Assembly: GCF_000949135.2 (NCBI RefSeq)
Contig: NZ_JTAN02000007.1
Location: 1-41,432, forward strand
Length of the DNA stretch: 41,432 nucleotides
Source of the DNA: Burkholderia sp. USMB20
Lineage (GTDB): Bacteria; Pseudomonadota; Gammaproteobacteria; Burkholderiales; Burkholderiaceae
Direction: 5' to 3'
A program made the translations under genes and the position numbers. The notes beneath the pieces are model-generated. The model did not search any database, had not been told where the DNA came from, and saw nothing but the letters and a program-made list of their open reading frames with translations. Below are positions 2,326-10,004 of this stretch, one piece after another. Each line of letters starts with the position of its first letter. The first letter of the stretch is position 1.

Positions 2326-2844
2326 ATGCCCTCAAACGCCCCCGACGACGACGCATTGCGCGAACTCATCCCCAGGCTGCGACGCTTCGCGCTCTGGCTG
2401 GCACGTGATGTCCACGCGGCCGACGATCTCGTCCAGTCGACGCTCGAGCGCGCGCTGTCGCGCTGGGCGAGCCGCCGCGACGACGCGTCGCTGCGCAGTT
2501 GGCTCTTCACGATCCTTTACCGGCAATTTCTCGACGGCAAGCGCAGCGCGAAGCGCTATGCGTGGCTGCTCGGCCGCATTCGCGACGACGACGAAGCGCA
2601 CTGGCCGTCCGCCGAACGCGAGGTGGCCGCACGCGCGACGCTCGAAGCGTTCGGCCGTTTGTCCGACGAGCAGCGCAGCCTGCTGCTGCTCGTCGCGGTC
2701 GAGGGCTTCACGTATCGGGAAGTCGCCGACCTGCTCGACGTGCCGATCGGCACCGTGATGTCGCGACTCTCCCGCGCCCGCCAGGCGCTGCGCCAGCTCA
2801 GCGACGGCGAGCTTCCCACTCCTTCTCTCCGTTTGATGAAATGA
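2326..2844 (+). CDS. ECF-type RNA polymerase sigma factor
   Basis: A 172-residue group IV sigma factor. Region 2 is visible at about residues 12-75 (ADDLVQSTLERAL), and region 4 at about 110-160 has the helix-turn-helix YREVADLLDVPIGTVMSRL. It would direct RNA polymerase to the GGAATA/CGTC promoters just upstream, giving autoregulation and control of the divergent catalase/b561 operon. Its stop overlaps the anti-sigma start (ATGA at 2841-2844). The start at 2326 has no clear Shine-Dalgarno sequence. The inducing signal is not evident; oxidants are a reasonable guess from the target genes. Confidence 0.92.
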   Translation: MPSNAPDDDALRELIPRLRRFALWLARDVHAADDLVQSTLERALSRWASRRDDASLRSWLFTILYRQFLDGKRSAKRYAWLLGRIRDDDEAHWPSAEREVAARATLEAFGRLSDEQRSLLLLVAVEGFTYREVADLLDVPIGTVMSRLSRARQALRQLSDGELPTPSLRLMK

Positions 2845-3602
2845 ATACGCTCCGTCCCGACGAACACGATCTCCAGGCCTATGTCGACGGCCAGCTCGAC
2901 GACGATGCGCGTGCCGCGGTCGAGCGATATCTCGCGCTGCATCCGGAGAGTGCGGAACAGGTGAAGCAATGGCAGCAGGATGCGCAGCGGTTGCGGGCCG
3001 CGCTCGAAGGCGTGCGGATGCCTGGCGAGAATCCTGCGCTGGATCCGGCGGCGATTCGTGCGAAGCGTGCGGAGCGCTCGCGGGTGCGGTTCGCGATGGC
3101 GGCTTCGTTCGTGTTCTGTATCGGGCTCGGGACGTTCGGTGGGTGGCAAGCGCGCGGGTGGAACGCGGCGCCGCCGATTGCGCCGATGAGCGATGCGGTC
3201 GAGGCTTACCGGATGATGGTGGTCGATCAAACCGCGAAGGTGGATTTCCGGCCGAACGGTGCGGGCGATTTGCAGGGGTGGCTCACCCGCCGCGTCGGGG
3301 CATCGGCGAGGCTGCCGGATTTGAGTGCGGCGGGGTTCAGGCCGGTCGGCGGACGGTTGTTTACGACGGACAGTGGGGCCACGGCCGCGATGGTGCTCTA
3401 TGAGGACGACGCCGGGCGGACGCTGAGCTTCTATCTCCGGCCCGCGGAATCGAAACATCGGCTGCTGCCGGCCGGGCAACGCGTGGATGGGTCGTTGCTG
3501 GCGCGGTATGGGTCGGTGAATGGGCTCAACTTCGCGGTGGTCGGGCCTGTGGATAGTCTTGGTGAGCACGCGGTCGTGAGGGCGCTCGATCAGCAGATTT
3601 GA
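2841..3602 (+). CDS. Membrane anti-sigma factor
   Basis: A 253-residue protein with a cytoplasmic N-terminal helical region (HDLQAYVDGQLDDDARAAVERYL, about residues 9-31) typical of anti-sigma domains, one transmembrane helix (about 84-102) and a periplasmic C-terminal domain of about 150 residues. I see no HxxxCxxC zinc motif, so it is not a canonical ZAS protein. It overlaps the sigma gene by 4 bp, which supports co-translation of an inhibitor with its sigma factor. It probably sequesters the sigma at the membrane until a periplasmic signal arrives. Its 3' end carries a chance CTGTGGATA string that resembles the DnaA-type sites in the region that follows. Confidence 0.85.
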   Translation: MNTLRPDEHDLQAYVDGQLDDDARAAVERYLALHPESAEQVKQWQQDAQRLRAALEGVRMPGENPALDPAAIRAKRAERSRVRFAMAASFVFCIGLGTFGGWQARGWNAAPPIAPMSDAVEAYRMMVVDQTAKVDFRPNGAGDLQGWLTRRVGASARLPDLSAAGFRPVGGRLFTTDSGATAAMVLYEDDAGRTLSFYLRPAESKHRLLPAGQRVDGSLLARYGSVNGLNFAVVGPVDSLGEHAVVRALDQQI

Positions 3603-3703
3603 GCTGGACGATATGCTGTCCGTTGGTGGCTGTTGTGCGCTGACTGCGGTCCGGCCGATGCGGTTCGACAAGCCTGAAAGCACTCACGTTCACCGTTCGG
3701 GGT

Positions 3704-4063
3704 CACAGCGTTTAAATTCGCTTTCGTGGTGGTTGTCCACACCGCGAACCTCGTCGCGGTGCGTTCCCGGATGGGTAGACCCACTTCGGTTCCGACGTCA
3801 CAGGGTTTGGCGCCTTCTGGACGCAGGATATCCACATCGGCCGCAGCGGCTCGGCATGCCGTCTCTGGTTGAATCACTCACCTTCGGCCCGCACAGCAAT
3901 TCGAGTGTCTTTGGGTCGCGATATCCACATCGCCCTCGCCGAGCTGGTACACAGGATTTCGATTCGGCCGCTCACGGGTTGTTCCCATGCGCGTGAGCGC
4001 TTCGAATCAATGTATCCCGGGGGCACACAGCGTTCCTGATTGTTTGCGTGCCGGTTGTCCACT
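3704..4063 (+). repeat. Five degenerate repeats, CACAG plus a DnaA-like box at +29
   Basis: Units start at 3704, 3799, 3892, 3950 and 4026. Each begins CACAG[CG][AG][AT]T, or nearly so. Each has a DnaA-like 9-mer starting exactly 29 bp after the first C: TTGTCCACA, ATATCCACA, ATATCCACA, TTGTTCCCA and TTGTCCACT. Unit spacings are 95, 93, 58 and 76 bp. The sequence between is mostly not conserved, apart from G-rich positions just before the box. Units 2 and 3 share the 13-mer GATATCCACATCG. Confidence 0.75.
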
Positions 4064-4409
4064 CGCGACAATCGGGCGCTACGGCCGCACGGACTCCAGC
4101 GTCGTGTCGTACGACGGTGGCGTGGTCGTCATAACGGACCTTGTGCAGCCGCATCGGTCATGAGCACCCACGACGCAGCCAGCAATATCGATCACCAGCA
4201 TCTCATTGACGGGAGCCTTCATCGATCGCCGGGATCGAACTTCACGTTGAATCGCTCGCCCTTGAACCGACAACGATCCCGAACCCCGGCGATTCTACAG
4301 ATACGAGCGTTCGAGCTGGTCGCGGGCTTCGGCTTCGCTTGATCCATCCACCGCACGCAGTGCATATCCCGCCCGGATCACAGTCGGCGGACTGTGCTTA
4401 TCCAAAGGT

Positions 4410-4447
4410 GTTAACAGAGTTCGTATATATACGTAGTGATAGTTAAC
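4410..4447. repeat. AT-rich palindrome between two GTTAAC sites
   Basis: GTTAAC occurs at 4410-4415 and 4442-4447. Between them lies the perfect 12-bp palindrome CGTATATATACG (4422-4433). This is the most AT-rich stretch of the gene-free region and sits next to TTATCCAAA (4398) and TTATCCACT (4464). It could be a duplex-unwinding element. GTTAAC also fits the GTWWAC methylation motif that I remember from B. cenocepacia. Confidence 0.6.
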
Positions 4448-4678
4448 AAGCCCGCAGCCTCACAGTGGATAACTTCCGTAACGCCCTGAATTTTCAGCAC
4501 GAAGTGGAATGCATAACCACAGGCGATGCACAGGAAAATCGCTGTGCATCACAGAACAACTTTCCGTCGATTCACAGTCGCGCCGACATATCCTCAATCG
4601 TTCCACTGTGAATCCAGAGGCTTGCCGGACGGTTATCCATAGCGCGCTGTGGATAAGTTGCAGCGCCAGTCCGCCCCG

Positions 4679-5017
4679 CTATCGAACCATGGCAATCAGA
4701 TACAGCCCGCCGAGGATCATCGCGACGCCTCCCCATTGCGCATACGACACGCGCTCGCCGAAGAACACGATTCCGGCCAGAAAGACGAGTGCGAACGTAA
4801 GCGCGGTAAACGGATACACGACGGTGAGCCCGGTCTTGCTCAAAGCGAAGATCCAGAGCACCGTGCTTGCGCCGTAGCAGAGCAACCCGAGCGCGACCCA
4901 CGCATTGATGAATTCGGTCAATGCATGGCGGCCGTCGGCACCGATCTTGAACGCGACCTGACCGGTTGCCGCGAGGAACACGCCGGCCAGAATGAGCACG
5001 TAGATGGACGGTTTCAC
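4679..5017 (-). CDS. Small EamA/SMR-type membrane protein (ArnE-like flippase candidate)
   Basis: A 112-residue protein with four predicted transmembrane helices (about residues 4-22, 36-56, 62-82 and 88-110), including FGERVSYAQWGGVAMILGG near the C terminus, typical of EamA/SMR half-transporters. The open frame extends upstream, but the GTG at 5017 is preferred: it overlaps the methyltransferase stop as GTGA and begins directly before the first helix. As the last gene of a glycosyltransferase cluster it may flip a polyprenyl-phosphate sugar, as ArnE/ArnF do. A multidrug SMR pump is less likely from the context. Confidence 0.75.
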   Translation of the reverse strand: MKPSIYVLILAGVFLAATGQVAFKIGADGRHALTEFINAWVALGLLCYGASTVLWIFALSKTGLTVVYPFTALTFALVFLAGIVFFGERVSYAQWGGVAMILGGLYLIAMVR

Positions 5018-5802
5018 CGGTGTTCCTCGTGGAGCTTCAATCGGTTGGCGACCCTGCGGCTCTTCAGCATGGCGATGCCGGTTTTTACGCGCACCGGCGG
5101 CCAGCGCAGCAGGAACTTGCGTGCCTTGTAGCCGGGCGGCGACACGTCCGGTATGCCCGAACGGCTGTCGACGCGGTGTTGTCCGATCGCGTCCGGCAGC
5201 CGTTCCGCTTCGTCGGCGGCAACGAAAAAGAGCAGGTTGTAGCGGTACCACGGCTCGATGCGCATGTCTGCGGCGATTATCGGCCGGACGAAATCGAACA
5301 GCTGGTAGCCGTGGCGCGCGAACAGGTCACGCCAGAATTCGTAGCGCTGTTCGTTGATGTGGTTCTCGCCACCCTGGCCAGGCACGGCGGCGGAAAACAG
5401 CACGCGCTTGCCGTGCCGGACGAGATTGTCGACGAGTGCCTCGCTGGATGCCTTTGGCACGTGCTCGCCGACTTCGAGGCACTGGACGAGATCGAACGAT
5501 CGCCCGAGATCGAAGCGCTTCGAAATATCGGCCGGTACGAAATGGGTGGGGTCGATCATCAGCACCGAACGATCGACATAGTCGCCGTCGATGCCGGTGA
5601 TGTCCTGCACGCCGAGCTGGCGATGCACGCTTAGCCATGCTCCGGCACCGCAACCGACGTCGAGGATACTCGCAGGCTTCAGCAGCGCGTTGACGCCGGG
5701 CAGCACGCCATGCGCCGACCGCGCCGATCCCTCGCGCTGGTACCGGTAGAAGATCTCGTCATACGAGCGCGGCGTATCGTCCGCGATGAATCCAGGTGAC
5801 AT
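5014..5802 (-). CDS. SAM-dependent methyltransferase (class I)
   Basis: A 262-residue protein. The SAM-binding motif I is ILDVGCGAGAW near residue 50, an acidic motif II follows (ITGIDGDYVD), and DLVQCLEVGEHVP serves as motif IV. The start at 5802 is supported by GGGAG seven bases upstream; the longer upstream frame is low-complexity and unconvincing. It sits between a polytopic membrane protein and the SMR-type protein, in a cluster with a family-2 glycosyltransferase. It therefore probably methylates a sugar or a lipid-linked intermediate. The substrate is not identifiable from sequence. Confidence 0.85.
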   Translation of the reverse strand: MSPGFIADDTPRSYDEIFYRYQREGSARSAHGVLPGVNALLKPASILDVGCGAGAWLSVHRQLGVQDITGIDGDYVDRSVLMIDPTHFVPADISKRFDLGRSFDLVQCLEVGEHVPKASSEALVDNLVRHGKRVLFSAAVPGQGGENHINEQRYEFWRDLFARHGYQLFDFVRPIIAADMRIEPWYRYNLLFFVAADEAERLPDAIGQHRVDSRSGIPDVSPPGYKARKFLLRWPPVRVKTGIAMLKSRRVANRLKLHEEHR

Positions 5803-5873
5803 CGCAATCTCCCGATGGCGCGATCGGTGCACGACGTGGCGCGACGCATCGCACCGCATGCGACGCAGTGCAA

Positions 5874-7448
5874 TCAATCGCCACGACAAGCCTGCTTCTC
5901 GTACACCGACCATTCGCCCGCCGTCTTCACGCGCACGACGCGACAGTCCGGATTGGCGAAAAACGTGTCCGGCAGCGGCGTCTCGGCGCGGACGATGAAA
6001 TAACGGTACAGGCGCCCCTGGTGTCGCTGCCAGTTGAAGTGCCGGTACAGCGGCAACGGCGAAACGTCGGACGGCCCGACACCGGGCAGCCGGTCGAGCC
6101 GAAAGCGGACGATCTGCGGCGGAAATCGCGCGGCATTGAAATCGACGAATCCGCGGTGCTCGGCCTGATACCAGAGCGCGAAGTTCTCGTAGGCATACGG
6201 GTTGCCGGCAGCCGGGCTCGTCCTGTCGACGATGATCGCAAGGCCGCGCTGCGCGGGTTCGATCGCGTTGGCAACCACGTCGAAATCAGCGCTCTCGTCG
6301 GCGAAGCGCAGCGCGCGGACACCTTGCTGAACGACGAAACCGGCGCAGATCACGGCAAGGAGCAGTTGCGTCGTCAGCGCAAGCCGTGGGATCCGTCGGC
6401 CTGGTTCCGCCGGTGCGGGCGCCCGGAACATCAGCGCATAAAACGGAAACAGGAACAGCGCAAAGCGCGGATACAGGAAAAACGTGTTGATCGCGAACAG
6501 CGGCACGGTAAACCAGACGATGGTCACGATGATTGCCGGTACATAGGCGGCGACTTGCCGGTTCGGTTTCGATGCCATCACGAACGGTGCGGCAGCGATC
6601 AGCAGGAATGCCAGCAGCGAACGGCTGTCGCCGGCGACACCCCACGGATAGAGCACGGCCGCGAACACGCGCACGACCGGGCTGATCCCCCACATCACGG
6701 TGAACGGATACATCGGCGTCAGATCGACGTCACGATGCAACGCCGCGTACAGCACGGTGACGGGGGCGAGGATCGCATACGGCCACGAGGCGAGCAGCAC
6801 GCGCGGCAACATGCTGGTCGTGCGCAGGCGCACGAGCAGGAACAGCACGCCGATCGCGTTCGCGAACACGAAGAGTAGTCCGTGCGAGAAAAACAGCGCG
6901 AGATTCACGAGCACCAGCATTGCGCCGCGGCGGGCTGTCGGCCGCCCGGCATAGTCGAGCGCGAGCGCCAGGAAGATCATCGCGACCGGTACGGCGACGA
7001 GGTACGAGTAGAAACCGAACTCGTATGCGAAGCCGAAGAATCCGGGCACGCACAGCCAGTCGAGGCGCGGGTCCGTACCGAGACGCCGGCGCAGCGCGAG
7101 GTACGCGGCGACGAAACCATAGAACGACAGGGTCAGCATGACCTTGAACGCAGCCGCGACGGGCATCACGAACGAAAGCAGCGCTGCCGCGCCATAGCCG
7201 AGCAGGTAGGGCGTAAACAGATTGATCCGCAGCAATGGCGCCCATGGCGACTGGCCGCGCAGCATGTCGCGCAGCGTGGCGACCTGCGCCGCATGCTGCG
7301 GAAGATCGACCATCGGCGGGTGCGGCGCGAGCCAGAACAGCAGGCCGGCGGCGGCGACCGTCGCAACGAACAATGCGCGCAACGTGCGATCGGCTGTGCG
7401 ATATGGCCACGCACGCGGCAAGCGGCCGCTTACCGTGCTGTCATCCAT
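5874..7448 (-). CDS. Polytopic membrane protein, probable GT-C type glycosyltransferase
   Basis: A 524-residue protein with about ten or more hydrophobic helices over residues 25-390, then a soluble C-terminal domain of about 130 residues. The first extracytoplasmic loop contains PPMVDLPQHAAQ, with an acidic residue where GT-C enzymes carry their catalytic Asp/Glu. In context (a polyprenyl-phosphate sugar synthase upstream, a possible flippase downstream) it would transfer a lipid-linked sugar to an acceptor on the periplasmic face. I do not recognise the exact family and the acceptor is unknown. The preceding glycosyltransferase gene ends 75 bp upstream, so they are probably co-transcribed. 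Confidence 0.7.
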   Translation of the reverse strand: MDDSTVSGRLPRAWPYRTADRTLRALFVATVAAAGLLFWLAPHPPMVDLPQHAAQVATLRDMLRGQSPWAPLLRINLFTPYLLGYGAAALLSFVMPVAAAFKVMLTLSFYGFVAAYLALRRRLGTDPRLDWLCVPGFFGFAYEFGFYSYLVAVPVAMIFLALALDYAGRPTARRGAMLVLVNLALFFSHGLLFVFANAIGVLFLLVRLRTTSMLPRVLLASWPYAILAPVTVLYAALHRDVDLTPMYPFTVMWGISPVVRVFAAVLYPWGVAGDSRSLLAFLLIAAAPFVMASKPNRQVAAYVPAIIVTIVWFTVPLFAINTFFLYPRFALFLFPFYALMFRAPAPAEPGRRIPRLALTTQLLLAVICAGFVVQQGVRALRFADESADFDVVANAIEPAQRGLAIIVDRTSPAAGNPYAYENFALWYQAEHRGFVDFNAARFPPQIVRFRLDRLPGVGPSDVSPLPLYRHFNWQRHQGRLYRYFIVRAETPLPDTFFANPDCRVVRVKTAGEWSVYEKQACRGD

Positions 7449-7523
7449 TGCACGACGCCCCCCGTAAGATACCGCCGCCGCCGGCCTCGTGCCGGGGTGT
7501 TGCGCGACAGGACCGATGGCCTG

Positions 7524-8459
7524 TCATAGCGTCTTCTCGACGATGAAGCGCGGGCGCTGCTTCGTCTCCGAATAGATCTTCGCGACATAGCCGCCGATCA
7601 CGCCGAGGAACAGCAACTGCAGGCCGCCGAGAAAGTACATCGGGATCACGGTGGACGCCCAACCGGGCACCGAACGGTCGGTGAACAGCCGGATCGACAG
7701 CGCCCAGATGCCGAACACGGTCGAGGCCAGCGCGAGCAGCGCGCCAACGTACGCGCTCCATTGCAGCGGCTTCGTCGAAAACGACGCGACGCCGTCCGAC
7801 GCGAGCAGGATCATCCTCGCCAACGGATATTTGCTTTCGCCGGCGAAGCGCGGCTGCCGGTCGTACCGGACGATCGCGGTACGGAAGCCCAGCAGCGGCA
7901 CGATGCCGCGCAGGAACAGGTTGACCTCGCGGAAGCCGCGCAATTCTTCGATCGCCCGGCGGCTCATCAGGCGGAAGTCCGCGTGATCCGGCAAGATGTC
8001 GACGCCGAAGCGGCGCAGCAGCCGGTAGTAGCCGCGCGCACTGACGCGCTTGAAGAAGCCGTCGCTGTCACGACGCTGCCGCACGCCGAATACGATCTCG
8101 GCGCCGGACTGGTATTCGCGCAGCATGCGCGGAATCGCGTCGAGGTCGTCCTGGAGATCGGCGTCGAGACTGATCAGCACGTCGCCGTTGACTCTCATGA
8201 GCCCGGCAAGCAATGCGTTCTGGTGCCCGTGGTTGCGCGACAGCTTGAGGCCGTGGATACGTGGATCGGCTGCATGGAAGCCTTCGATGAGGGACCAGGT
8301 CCGGTCGTGTGAACCGTCGTCGACGAAGGTCACGCCGCTCGCGCCGTCAATGATGCCGTCGCGGGTAAGCTGATCAAGCAGGATCGTGAGCCGGCGTACG
8401 GTTTCCGGCAACACGGCTTCTTCGTTGAAGCAGGGAATTACCAGATTGAGCGCGACCAT
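7524..8459 (-). CDS. Family 2 glycosyltransferase, polyprenyl-phosphate sugar synthase (GtrB/ArnC/DPM1-like)
   Basis: A 311-residue protein with a GT2 catalytic domain (residues 1-230) and two C-terminal transmembrane helices (about 232-255 and 268-292), the layout of GtrB and ArnC. Motifs: LVIPCFNEEAVLPE at the N terminus, TFVDDGSHDRTW near 50, and SLDADLQDDLDAIP near 95, which holds the metal-binding DxD. It would move a sugar from a nucleotide donor to undecaprenyl phosphate on the cytoplasmic face. The start at 8459 has GGGGTGGG just upstream; the long upstream extension has no domain features. It is the first gene of the four-gene minus-strand cluster. Confidence 0.88.
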   Translation of the reverse strand: MVALNLVIPCFNEEAVLPETVRRLTILLDQLTRDGIIDGASGVTFVDDGSHDRTWSLIEGFHAADPRIHGLKLSRNHGHQNALLAGLMRVNGDVLISLDADLQDDLDAIPRMLREYQSGAEIVFGVRQRRDSDGFFKRVSARGYYRLLRRFGVDILPDHADFRLMSRRAIEELRGFREVNLFLRGIVPLLGFRTAIVRYDRQPRFAGESKYPLARMILLASDGVASFSTKPLQWSAYVGALLALASTVFGIWALSIRLFTDRSVPGWASTVIPMYFLGGLQLLFLGVIGGYVAKIYSETKQRPRFIVEKTL

Positions 8460-8774
8460 ACCCACCCCGATATCGTTACGCGTGCGTTGCGGTCTGCCGT
8501 CGTCACGAGGTGCTACTGGTTCATGCAAGGTGGCACGCGGATCGTGCATCGCGCGCGCCTGTTCCCCGTGACCGGATCGGGCCGGTTCCTGCTCTTGATT
8601 GTCGTTCGCAACCCCCGGCCCCGGATTCGCGACGAATCCATTATGACGGAACGTACCCGGGCCCGGTGAGACGTCGCAGTGAGGATGAACCCGGATGCGA
8701 TTGCGGTCTGCGCTCGAGCGCCGGACGATCCCCCAACGCATCCACCCCGATTCAAAAAATTTTCACGAAGGGGC
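8460..8774. other. Intergenic region before tRNA-Val
   Basis: This is the gene-free space between the divergent glycosyltransferase start and the tRNA promoter. Open frames here are GC-driven shadows. An AT-rich run near 8752-8764 precedes the tRNA -35 and may act as an UP element. I cannot identify a convincing minus-strand promoter for the glycosyltransferase cluster. Confidence 0.4.
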
Positions 8775-8803
8775 TTGCGCACCTCCAAAACCCTCTCTAT
8801 AAT
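8775..8803 (+). promoter_or_regulatory. tRNA-Val promoter
   Basis: TTGCGC (8775-8780), 17 bp, then a perfect TATAAT (8798-8803). The tRNA 5' end is at 8816, so transcription should begin a few bases before it. The upstream AT-rich run followed by GGGG and a TTGCG-type -35 resembles rrn promoter P1 in this window. Confidence 0.8.
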
Positions 8804-8815
8804 TCGCGGCTTCTT

Positions 8816-8892
8816 AGGCTCGTAGCTCAGTTGGTTAGAGCACCACCTTGACATGGTGGGGGTCGTTGGTTCGAATCCAATCGAGCCTACCA
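8816..8892 (+). tRNA. tRNA-Val (anticodon GAC)
   Basis: A 77-nt cloverleaf with encoded CCA. The acceptor stem is AGGCTCG (8816-8822) paired with CGAGCCT (8882-8888), the discriminator is A8889, and CCA is 8890-8892. The D arm (GCTC...GAGC) and T arm (TTCGAATC) are intact. The anticodon stem CCACC/GGTGG closes the loop TTGACAT, giving anticodon GAC, which reads GUC/GUU valine codons. Confidence 0.95.
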
Positions 8893-8960
8893 ACGAACAA
8901 AATGAAGGGGTCCGGCAGCGCAAATTGCCTACAGGCAATCCGGCTCGCCAAACATACGAA

Positions 8961-8996
8961 CGCCACGCGGCAACATCGCGTGGCGTTTTTCTTTTT
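8961..8996 (+). terminator. Intrinsic terminator after tRNA-Val
   Basis: CGCCACGCG (8961-8969) pairs with CGCGTGGCG (8977-8985) across a 7-nt loop, followed by TTTTTCTTTTT. A perfect 9-bp GC stem with a long T tract makes this a strong rho-independent terminator, about 70 nt past the tRNA. Confidence 0.9.
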
Positions 8997-9122
8997 GCGG
9001 CCGAAACTGCGCAGGCATGTGCCGATGCGTTGCATGCAATCCATGCGCAACAAGCAGTCCGCATTCGACAAGTCAGGTAGCAGAGCAGGGAAAGCGGGCG
9101 CAAAGCGCCCACCCGCCGAGCA

Positions 9123-10004
9123 TCAATGCAGATGCTTCAACTTGTCAGGATTCCGCACGACATAGATCGCGACGACCTTCCCGCCCTCGATCTGGAGAGC
9201 CGTCGTCTGCAGCTCGCCATCCGCTTCCAGTGTGACGAACCCCGGCAGCCCGTTGATGAACCCCGCGCGCACGAGCTTCGACGCATGCGTGGCGAACAGC
9301 TCGGCGAGGTACGCGTGCACCTTCATCACGCGCTCGAAGCCGAACACCGGCTTGCCCGCGGCCGTGCGCTTGCCGCCGCCGTCCGAATGCAGGCTCACGT
9401 CCTCGGCGAGCATCGCGCCTAGCGTGCGCATGTCGCCGCTGCGCGACGCCGCGAAAAACGCCTCGGCCAGCTCGATCCCGCGCTGCCTCTCGACATGAAA
9501 CCGCGGCCGCGCCTCGCGCACATGCGTGCGCGCCCGCGCGGCGAGCTGCCGGCAGGCGGCCGGGTCACGCTGGATCGTCGTCGCGATCTCGTCGAACGCG
9601 AGGCCGAACACGTCGTGCAGCAGGAACGCCGCACGTTCGAGCGGCGACAACCGTTCGAGCGCGAGGATCAGCGGCAGCGTGACGTCCTCCTGTTCATCTT
9701 CCTCGACGACCGGCTCGGGCAGCCACGGGCCGATGTAGGTCTCGCGCTGGTGCCGCGCGGACTTCAGCTGGTCGAGGCACATGCGCATCACCATGCGGCG
9801 CAGGAACGCCTCGGGCACGCGCACCTCGGTGCGATCGACGTCCATCCAGCGGATGAATGCCTCCTGCACGATGTCCTCGGCGTCCGCGACGGAACCGAGC
9901 ATCCGGTACGCGACGCGCATCAGCGTCCGACGCAGCGGGTCGAAGCTCGCCGCTGCGTCGGCCCGGTCTGCGGCGCTGCCGGCGGCCGGATCGAGGTGGG
10001 TCAT
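9123..10004 (-). CDS. ECF41-type sigma factor with SnoaL-like C-terminal domain
   Basis: A 293-residue protein: sigma region 2 (about residues 20-85, AYRMLGSVADAEDIVQEAF), region 4 (about 125-180), then a fused SnoaL-like domain (about 185-293). The three signatures I associate with ECF41 are all present: WLPEP between regions 2 and 4, DGGGK in the C-terminal domain, and NPDKL at the C terminus. In this group the fused domain replaces a separate anti-sigma and tunes activity from within. The ATG at 10004 overlaps the stop of the upstream decarboxylase-like gene by 1 bp (TGATG), giving the standard ECF41 gene pair. The signal is unknown. Confidence 0.93.
   Translation of the reverse strand: MTHLDPAAGSAADRADAAASFDPLRRTLMRVAYRMLGSVADAEDIVQEAFIRWMDVDRTEVRVPEAFLRRMVMRMCLDQLKSARHQRETYIGPWLPEPVVEEDEQEDVTLPLILALERLSPLERAAFLLHDVFGLAFDEIATTIQRDPAACRQLAARARTHVREARPRFHVERQRGIELAEAFFAASRSGDMRTLGAMLAEDVSLHSDGGGKRTAAGKPVFGFERVMKVHAYLAELFATHASKLVRAGFINGLPGFVTLEADGELQTTALQIEGGKVVAIYVVRNPDKLKHLH

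Follow-up and report, generated by a model that had tools for sequence, protein, structure and literature searches.

A clade-restricted array of DnaA-like boxes set at a fixed distance from the methylation motif CACAG near the chromosome 1 origin of Burkholderia

What is the function of a row of paired short motifs in which the distance within each pair is fixed and the distance between pairs varies? This question is raised by an intergenic stretch in DNA from Burkholderia sp. USMB20 (assembly GCF_000949135.2, contig NZ_JTAN02000007.1, positions 1 to 41,432 of the forward strand), hereafter called the window, which is 41,432 nucleotides long. A reading made from the sequence alone had reported five CACAG motifs, each followed at 29 bp by a DnaA-like 9-mer, with 95, 93, 58, and 76 bp from unit to unit. 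We confirmed all five pairs and their spacing on the + strand of the window and compared the 9-mers with the DnaA box TTATCCACA (Table 1). Comparison with related genomes shows that this array, hereafter array 1, is a real and conserved off-origin cluster of DnaA-like boxes with a methylation motif built into its geometry. The row of paired sites near the main origin is probably a store or switch that helps to time chromosome copying.

When offsets from 5 to 79 bp were scanned, all five CACAGs were paired with a box-like 9-mer (at least 6/9 matches) at offset 29, with a summed box match of 37 compared to 17 at the next best offset. The top count at any single offset was two in 5000 dinucleotide shuffles (reached in 13 of them) and three when the CACAGs were held fixed (6 of 5000). 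No other + strand CACAG occurs in 3603-4334, and none occurs on the opposite strand in 3690-4070. The fourth box, TTGTTCCCA, is barely box-like, and its counterpart in a relative (locus L031) is TTGTCCACA. Several DnaA-like boxes are thus clustered outside the origin, as in an off-origin DnaA-box cluster. The stretch 3603-4100 has 61% GC and, on reading, no A/T-rich unwinding core, so the array itself does not qualify as an oriC.

The array is conserved in relatives. A search with array 1 and a neighboring oriC-like element against 61 related genomes gave matches in 34, all within one of 25 genera. At 20 orthologous loci from relatives, the 3' part of the upstream flanking gene (query from 3301) aligned in every case and array stretches aligned in most. 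Boxes (WTRTCCACA) were located in the window and these loci, 21 in total, without requiring a CACAG. Ninety boxes lie on the array strand and one on the other, and 88 of the 90 have a CACAG 28-30 bp upstream (offset 29, 55 boxes; offset 30, 32; offset 28, 1). All 94 CACAGs in array 1 of these loci are on the array strand. The sequence-only reading had tied its idea to conservation of the offset in orthologous intergenic regions of Burkholderia; within the array-bearing clade the offset is conserved, as either 29 or 30 bp. It had also proposed that the geometry is what is kept and that the intervening sequence is mostly not conserved. The geometry is indeed kept in relatives, but the unit is a longer composite than CACAG plus box, and the statement about the intervening sequence was wrong, as relatives keep an upstream CTCACC and a CGTTTCGAGT block.

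Units of this kind occur at a second place. A pattern scan covered 249 genomes of the family. Of the 31 that belong to the same genus, 26 had 11-22 sites and five (G007, G030, G033, G200, and G268) had 0-2; the 218 genomes of other genera had 0-3 each, compared to 0-2 for a reversed-pattern control, all among the matches listed. Many of the sites beyond array 1 belong to another array of chromosome 1, array 2. With contigs treated as circular, it lies ~265-312 kb from array 1 in eight genomes and, inverted, ~545 kb away in G002, among the matches listed. At nine array 2 loci, CACAG is found 28-30 bp upstream of 78 of 81 boxes (71 at offset 30), the commonest distance between neighboring boxes is 88-90 bp (27 of 72), and the units have a single orientation in four loci and lie on both strands in five. 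One array 2 (locus L072) contains up to ~17 profile matches; one of its units (4274-4330) has CACGG in place of CACAG with the remaining unit intact, a natural test of the need for the methylation site. Other pattern matches fall on chromosome 1 at ~0.9 Mb and on chromosome 2, as single sites that by eye may lie within open frames.

The unit consensus of both arrays is CTCACC-N9-CACAG-CGTTTCGAGT-N14/15-G-WTRTCCACA, followed by A, C, or T. Of 178 units found by regular expression, a filter on consensus score and redundancy kept 80, and a profile of the unit (R1) was built from an alignment of 77 of these, so it is biased toward good units. Similarly, CACAG-anchored tables are conditioned on CACAG, whereas the counts of 88/90 and 78/81 are not. 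Among the best 150 of 221 profile matches (alignment A2), CTCACC, CACAG, and a T at model column 32 are near invariant, and in array 2 units with CACAG and box each position of CTCACC is 97-100% conserved. When the profile was compared with itself, lag 35 scored highest of 41 lags, aligning xAATNCACA with the box. Each unit may therefore, on this self-similarity, consist of a weak upstream DnaA-like site that ends in CACAG and a stronger box about three helical turns downstream, center to center. A different arrangement, in which four or five DnaA sites would follow one another every 11 bp inside the unit, was rejected, as lag 11 ranked eighth of 41 and the information profile had no 11-bp periodicity. 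A structured RNA was also rejected: RNAalifold predicted 0 pairs on the 77 units, and the sole Rfam match up to E 1 was below its cut-off.

The arrays appear to be confined to one clade within the genus. The R1 profile was run on 15 genomes. In nine array-bearing genomes, matches with E <1e-5 were confined to the two chromosome 1 arrays, and of six array-less genomes two had no match and four (G030, G033, G034, and G268, counted as array-less) had one marginal match each at E 0.016-0.057, among the matches listed. A genus survey found 8-22 units at E 1e-4 in 52 of 65 genomes and none in 13, among the matches listed. In an rpoB tree of 30 genomes, a branch with support 90/98 separates the 15 carriers from the rest, and the 13 array-less genomes all lie outside the carriers' clade; the outgroup row (G063) of this tree is ill-aligned, its root is a midpoint root, and its bootstrap is unsettled. 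The pattern CTCACCN9CACAGNNTTTCGAGT, searched in ~85,000 species with one genome each, returned 54 stretches. Fifty-one are from Burkholderia, and the other three are single matches in unrelated metagenome bins and probably due to chance. The named species among the 51 we take to be members of the B. cepacia complex (Bcc) or close to it, a distribution that fits a Bcc element.

A repeat family without function, REP (repetitive extragenic palindromic)-like or mobile and simply kept by descent, could resemble this picture, since array 2 contains some tandem units that are almost identical, and copy number varies. We regard this explanation as highly improbable. Strong profile matches sit at two loci per genome among the matches listed, the blocks are conserved and the spacers are not, the carriers' clade has no array-less member in the tree, and the tested proteins flanking one array 2 locus, four in number, resemble products of ordinary cell genes.

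The spacing within the units recurs at the chromosome 1 origin. The chromosome 1 record of three complete relatives with arrays opens with dnaA, array 1 and a separate oriC-like element follow at ~24-35 kb, and the cumulative GC-skew minimum is at 87, 84, and 94 kb, adjoining the boxes of a second oriC-like element; mnmG, at 109-122 kb, is past the minimum. This skew-minimum origin is ~50-62 kb from array 1. The pattern CACAGN{10,40}WTATCCACA occurs at 45 places in 13 array-less Burkholderia, 19 of them at offset 29 and in 12 of the 13 genomes. In seven array-less genomes, the counterpart of the skew-minimum origin has a pair of offset-29 sites that are oppositely oriented and separated by ~3.2 kb. 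Across 24 genomes, the left outer origin box has CACA at offset 29 in all 22 that have the exact box (the origin stretch taken from G268 and G030 has no exact left box), and of the 14 with an exact right outer box, 13 have CACA at 28-29, with G293 as the exception. The two-site spacing thus occurs without arrays and belongs to the origin boxes. In other Burkholderiaceae (18 genomes, genus g48 included), CACAG was seen at offsets 29 and 17 before TTATCCACA, in recurring places. The pairing of CACAG and box may be older than the genus.

Because the same spacing is found at the origin, also in species that lack arrays, we favor DnaA as the protein that binds the units, and this is our strongest reason for doing so. 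We consider such binding likely. DnaA is reported to bind an amplicon of the B. pseudomallei putative origin that carries two boxes (PMC12914326, 2026). The alternative is that the unit is a composite site for a Bcc-specific protein other than DnaA, with a footprint of ~50 bp in which a TCCACA block is present by coincidence, and that the arrays organize or segregate the origin-proximal chromosome. Information does extend along much of the unit, including its near-invariant positions, and two chromosome 1 loci per genome are dedicated to it among the matches listed. Set against this, the origin has the same spacing to a perfect DnaA box in array-less species as well, and no candidate protein came up, though none was sought. 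We judge the alternative unlikely.

Several observations nevertheless weigh against a bank of DnaA sites. Array boxes are mostly ATATCCACA, TTGTCCACA, or ATGTCCACA, systematically one or two steps off TTATCCACA, unlike all 24 non-array boxes, which are TTATCCACA; this also speaks for a protein other than DnaA. CTCACC and CGTTTCGAGT do not seem to be explained by DnaA and would call for a further contact or a partner. The weak upstream site resembles a box in array 2, less so in array 1. The left origin pair lacks CACAG in 4 of 13 array-less genomes (CACAC in G306 and G015, no exact box in G268 and G030). Off-array profile matches at E 1.3-1.7e-5 in G002, G025, G187, and G016 are apparently one conserved single site, which is one of the off-array pattern sites noted above. 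The IHF consensus WATCAANNNNTTR is absent from array 1 of the window and array 2 of G017, G012, and G025; the test is blunt, as the same strict search was also empty in the G017 origin.

The base that completes the methylation motif is distributed differently at the origin and in the arrays. The base after the array box is G in 1 of 171 boxes of both arrays, which means that the box itself cannot be CACAG. Around the origin of three genomes, 680 kb contain 24 non-array boxes, of which 21 read TTATCCACAG, where G follows. Conversely, the upstream site of the outer origin pairs is CACAG in 18 of 21 array-less cases and in 0 of 15 array-bearing ones, which have CACAC, CACAT, or CACAA instead; these counts and those of the base after the box are non-independent owing to relatedness, and G306 and G015, though array-less, also read CACAC at the left origin site. 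In the array-bearing clade the methylatable site is therefore missing from the weak site of the origin and present in the arrays, and strong boxes mostly carry it at the origin and avoid it in the arrays.

The earlier suggestion that CACAG is a type III methylation site agrees with published work. In B. cenocepacia, CACAG is a type III N6-adenine methylation motif that is methylated at the origins, and BCAL3494 is the type III methylase that targets it (PMC7364216). A BCAL3494 deletion mutant, in which neighboring genes are also gone, had a larger nucleoid fraction, and judging by growth the authors concluded that the deletion has a limited effect on replication (PMC7364216). Methylation of CACAG has also been recorded for B. 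pseudomallei 982 (PMC6813387), which indicates that the methylation is independent of the arrays. With a motif methylated in B. cenocepacia (PMC7364216) present 28-30 bp before 166 of 171 boxes of both arrays, a methylation site stands in fixed relation to an initiator-like box. That methylation of CACAG tunes binding to the units is a tentative proposal that we hold with less confidence than the binding itself.

One more specific role for methylation can be imagined. Type III sites are methylated on one strand only, and all 94 CACAGs of array 1 in 21 loci lie on one strand. From these two facts, CACAG methylation could mark sister chromosomes apart through strand-biased arrays, with a transient difference in DnaA uptake. 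If so, one sister array would be methylated after replication and the other unmethylated until the enzyme catches up, and the G would have moved on the Bcc stem from the weak site of the origin to the arrays, with control passing from origin to decoy. Array 2, with units on both strands in five of nine loci, weakens this idea, and we think it quite unlikely.

The CTCACC block raises the question of whether the arrays concern chromosome 2. They could be licensing sites like crtS, to which the chromosome 2 RepA binds via the CTCACC shared with its iterons. At the end of the published chromosome 2 iteron, CTCACC is followed by a few bases (PMC4948915), CTCACC-ending iterons cluster at the chromosome 2 origin with copies 44-105 bp apart (L172 1487-2660, G017), and CTCACC, with which most array units begin, is highly conserved in array 2 units that have CACAG and box. 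Yet the iteron half CCCGAAAA is missing from the units, CTCACC iterons (at most one mismatch) occur in all 12 genomes tested, six of them array-less, among the matches listed, and a shared 6-mer is weak evidence whose chance occurrence we estimate at several percent. We therefore place little belief in a licensing site, and a chromosome 2 link via CTCACC is possible and weakly supported. A plasmid-type iteron array for the chromosome 2 RepA was rejected: the full CCCGAAAA-N2-CTCACC is absent from the units, which share CTCACC alone, and the iterons are also found in array-less genomes.

The features of the locus are collected in Table 1. The intergenic stretch 3603-4678 separates a gene in anti-sigma position, which ends at 3602, from an opposite-strand EamA-type gene. 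In it, array 1 is followed by the oriC-like element, which has an A/T-rich core with TTAACAAG at ~4412-4449, CACAG and GTWWAC sites, and DnaA-like boxes at 4398(+), 4464(-), 4633(+), and 4648(-). With its core, TTAACAAG, and boxes at the ends, it is similar to an element that relatives have ~50-60 kb away at their GC-skew minimum, so that several of these chromosomes carry two oriC-like elements. Array 1 could be an auxiliary part of the neighboring element, if the latter were an alternative, second origin of chromosome 1. The distance from array 1 to the element is ~0.3-8.6 kb in the 19 loci measured, of 21, the element shares its core and a similar box layout with the skew-minimum element, and cumulative skew is near flat between both elements in G017. 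However, array 2 is far off, at the distances given above, a variable stretch, with type VI secretion genes in L031, lies between array 1 and the element, and G200 has the element without an array. We consider an auxiliary role improbable, and return below to DnaA-binding modules in their own right.

Table 1. Features of the array 1 locus in the window
Feature	Coordinates	Strand	CACAG start	Box	Box start	Identity of box to TTATCCACA	Remarks
Gene in anti-sigma position, orthology marker	2841..3602	+					after ECF sigma factor gene; no Pfam family
Array unit 1	3688..3744	+	3704	TTGTCCACA	3733	8/9	R1 profile 41.1 bits
Array unit 2	3793..3839	+	3799	ATATCCACA	3828	8/9	CTCACC block degenerate; R1 24.7 bits
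Array unit 3	3876..3932	+	3892	ATATCCACA	3921	8/9	CTCACC; R1 44.8 bits, best unit of the window
Array unit 4	3933..3987	+	3950	TTGTTCCCA	3979	6/9	degenerate box; R1 20.8 bits over 3933-3983
Array unit 5	4020..4063	+	4026	TTGTCCACT	4055	7/9	R1 23.3 bits over 4020-4062
Remnants of the array/oriC-like-element spacer of relatives	4145..4274	.					75-96% identity, separate places, some relatives
oriC-like element, separate from the array	4334..4676	.					73-91% identity in relatives
EamA-type transporter gene	4679..5020	-					Pfam EamA; frame start unsettled

Some further observations concern this neighborhood. The variable stretch that relatives have before the oriC-like element, next to array 1, is reduced to short remnants at positions 4064-4333 of the window. 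The L031 version of this stretch (4325-9755), which contains type VI secretion genes, codes for two proteins, one VgrG-like and the other with Imm71/Imm72 immunity domains. G007 has a match to the oriC-like element at the skew-minimum site alone. In array-less G200 (L109 2441-3000), the element stands directly after the gene in anti-sigma position, with TAGTAGTAG preceding TTAACAAG. On chromosome 1 of G017, G016, and G025, ~25-95 kb from dnaA, GC skew is near flat or has two local minima between the oriC-like elements, as if both were used or the origin had moved.

Taken as DnaA-binding modules, the arrays would be amplified copies of the origin's two-site spacing that may have arisen once on the Bcc stem. 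They would have gained CTCACC and CGTTTCGAGT for a partner protein or for further DnaA contacts. Array 1, near the origin, would double soon after initiation and draw off DnaA, as a reservoir or control site, and CACAG methylation may set the strength with which DnaA binds the weak upstream site. We give about an even chance to the interpretation that the array is an off-origin bank of DnaA-binding modules with a datA-like role, perhaps tuned by methylation, and regard restraint of re-initiation by the arrays as equally open to belief and doubt. Outside E. coli and Vibrio, little is known of how bacteria with multiple chromosomes restrict initiation to one event per cycle. The arrays, conserved within one clade, join a published methylation motif and initiator-like sites at a fixed distance that recurs at the origin, and so offer a testable handle on whether a type III methylase has a part in Bcc replication timing.

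Comparison with known systems places the arrays near several of them. The analogy to GATC and SeqA drawn in the sequence-only reading is apt in that adenine methylation lies beside initiator-like sites, and it is loose in that CACAG, as a type III site, is methylated on a single strand. GATC is palindromic and, unlike CACAG, hemimethylated on both sisters, and no SeqA-like reader is known to us here. What the E. coli system, outlined in PMC7364216, has in common with the arrays is an adenine methylated beside initiator sites. Closest in motif and organism are the B. cenocepacia origins with their methylated CACAG sites (PMC7364216) and the 7-mers CTGTGCA described by Du et al. (PMC4948915): the same motif, in related bacteria, with CACAG near DnaA boxes, and at the B. 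cenocepacia origins methylation was measured (PMC7364216). The arrays differ from these published origins in having CACAG 29-30 bp upstream and avoiding it at the box ends. Neither the fixed offset nor the composite unit nor array 2 is described in the parts of the literature available, in agreement with the earlier statement that no element with this geometry is described; supplementary maps of PMC4948915 may show the array 1 boxes. The crtS site of Vibrio cholerae is likewise a non-coding main-chromosome site in a multi-chromosome bacterium and, unlike the arrays on present evidence, is bound by the chromosome 2 initiator (PMC11711613). DARS1 and DARS2 of E. coli are also non-coding DnaA-box clusters away from oriC; their core consists of three boxes, to which DARS2 adds Fis and IHF sites (PMC4585315), compared to five units in the window array and up to ~17 profile matches in one array 2. 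An IHF-dependent datA was rejected as a class for the arrays, as those tested had no IHF consensus by the strict pattern. In other respects datA of E. coli is similar to the array, being a non-coding cluster of five DnaA-like boxes (five units here) on the main chromosome and off the origin (PMC4585315), and the arrays are distinguished from it, beyond the IHF consensus, by a regular composite unit with a methylation site and by their occurrence as two arrays.
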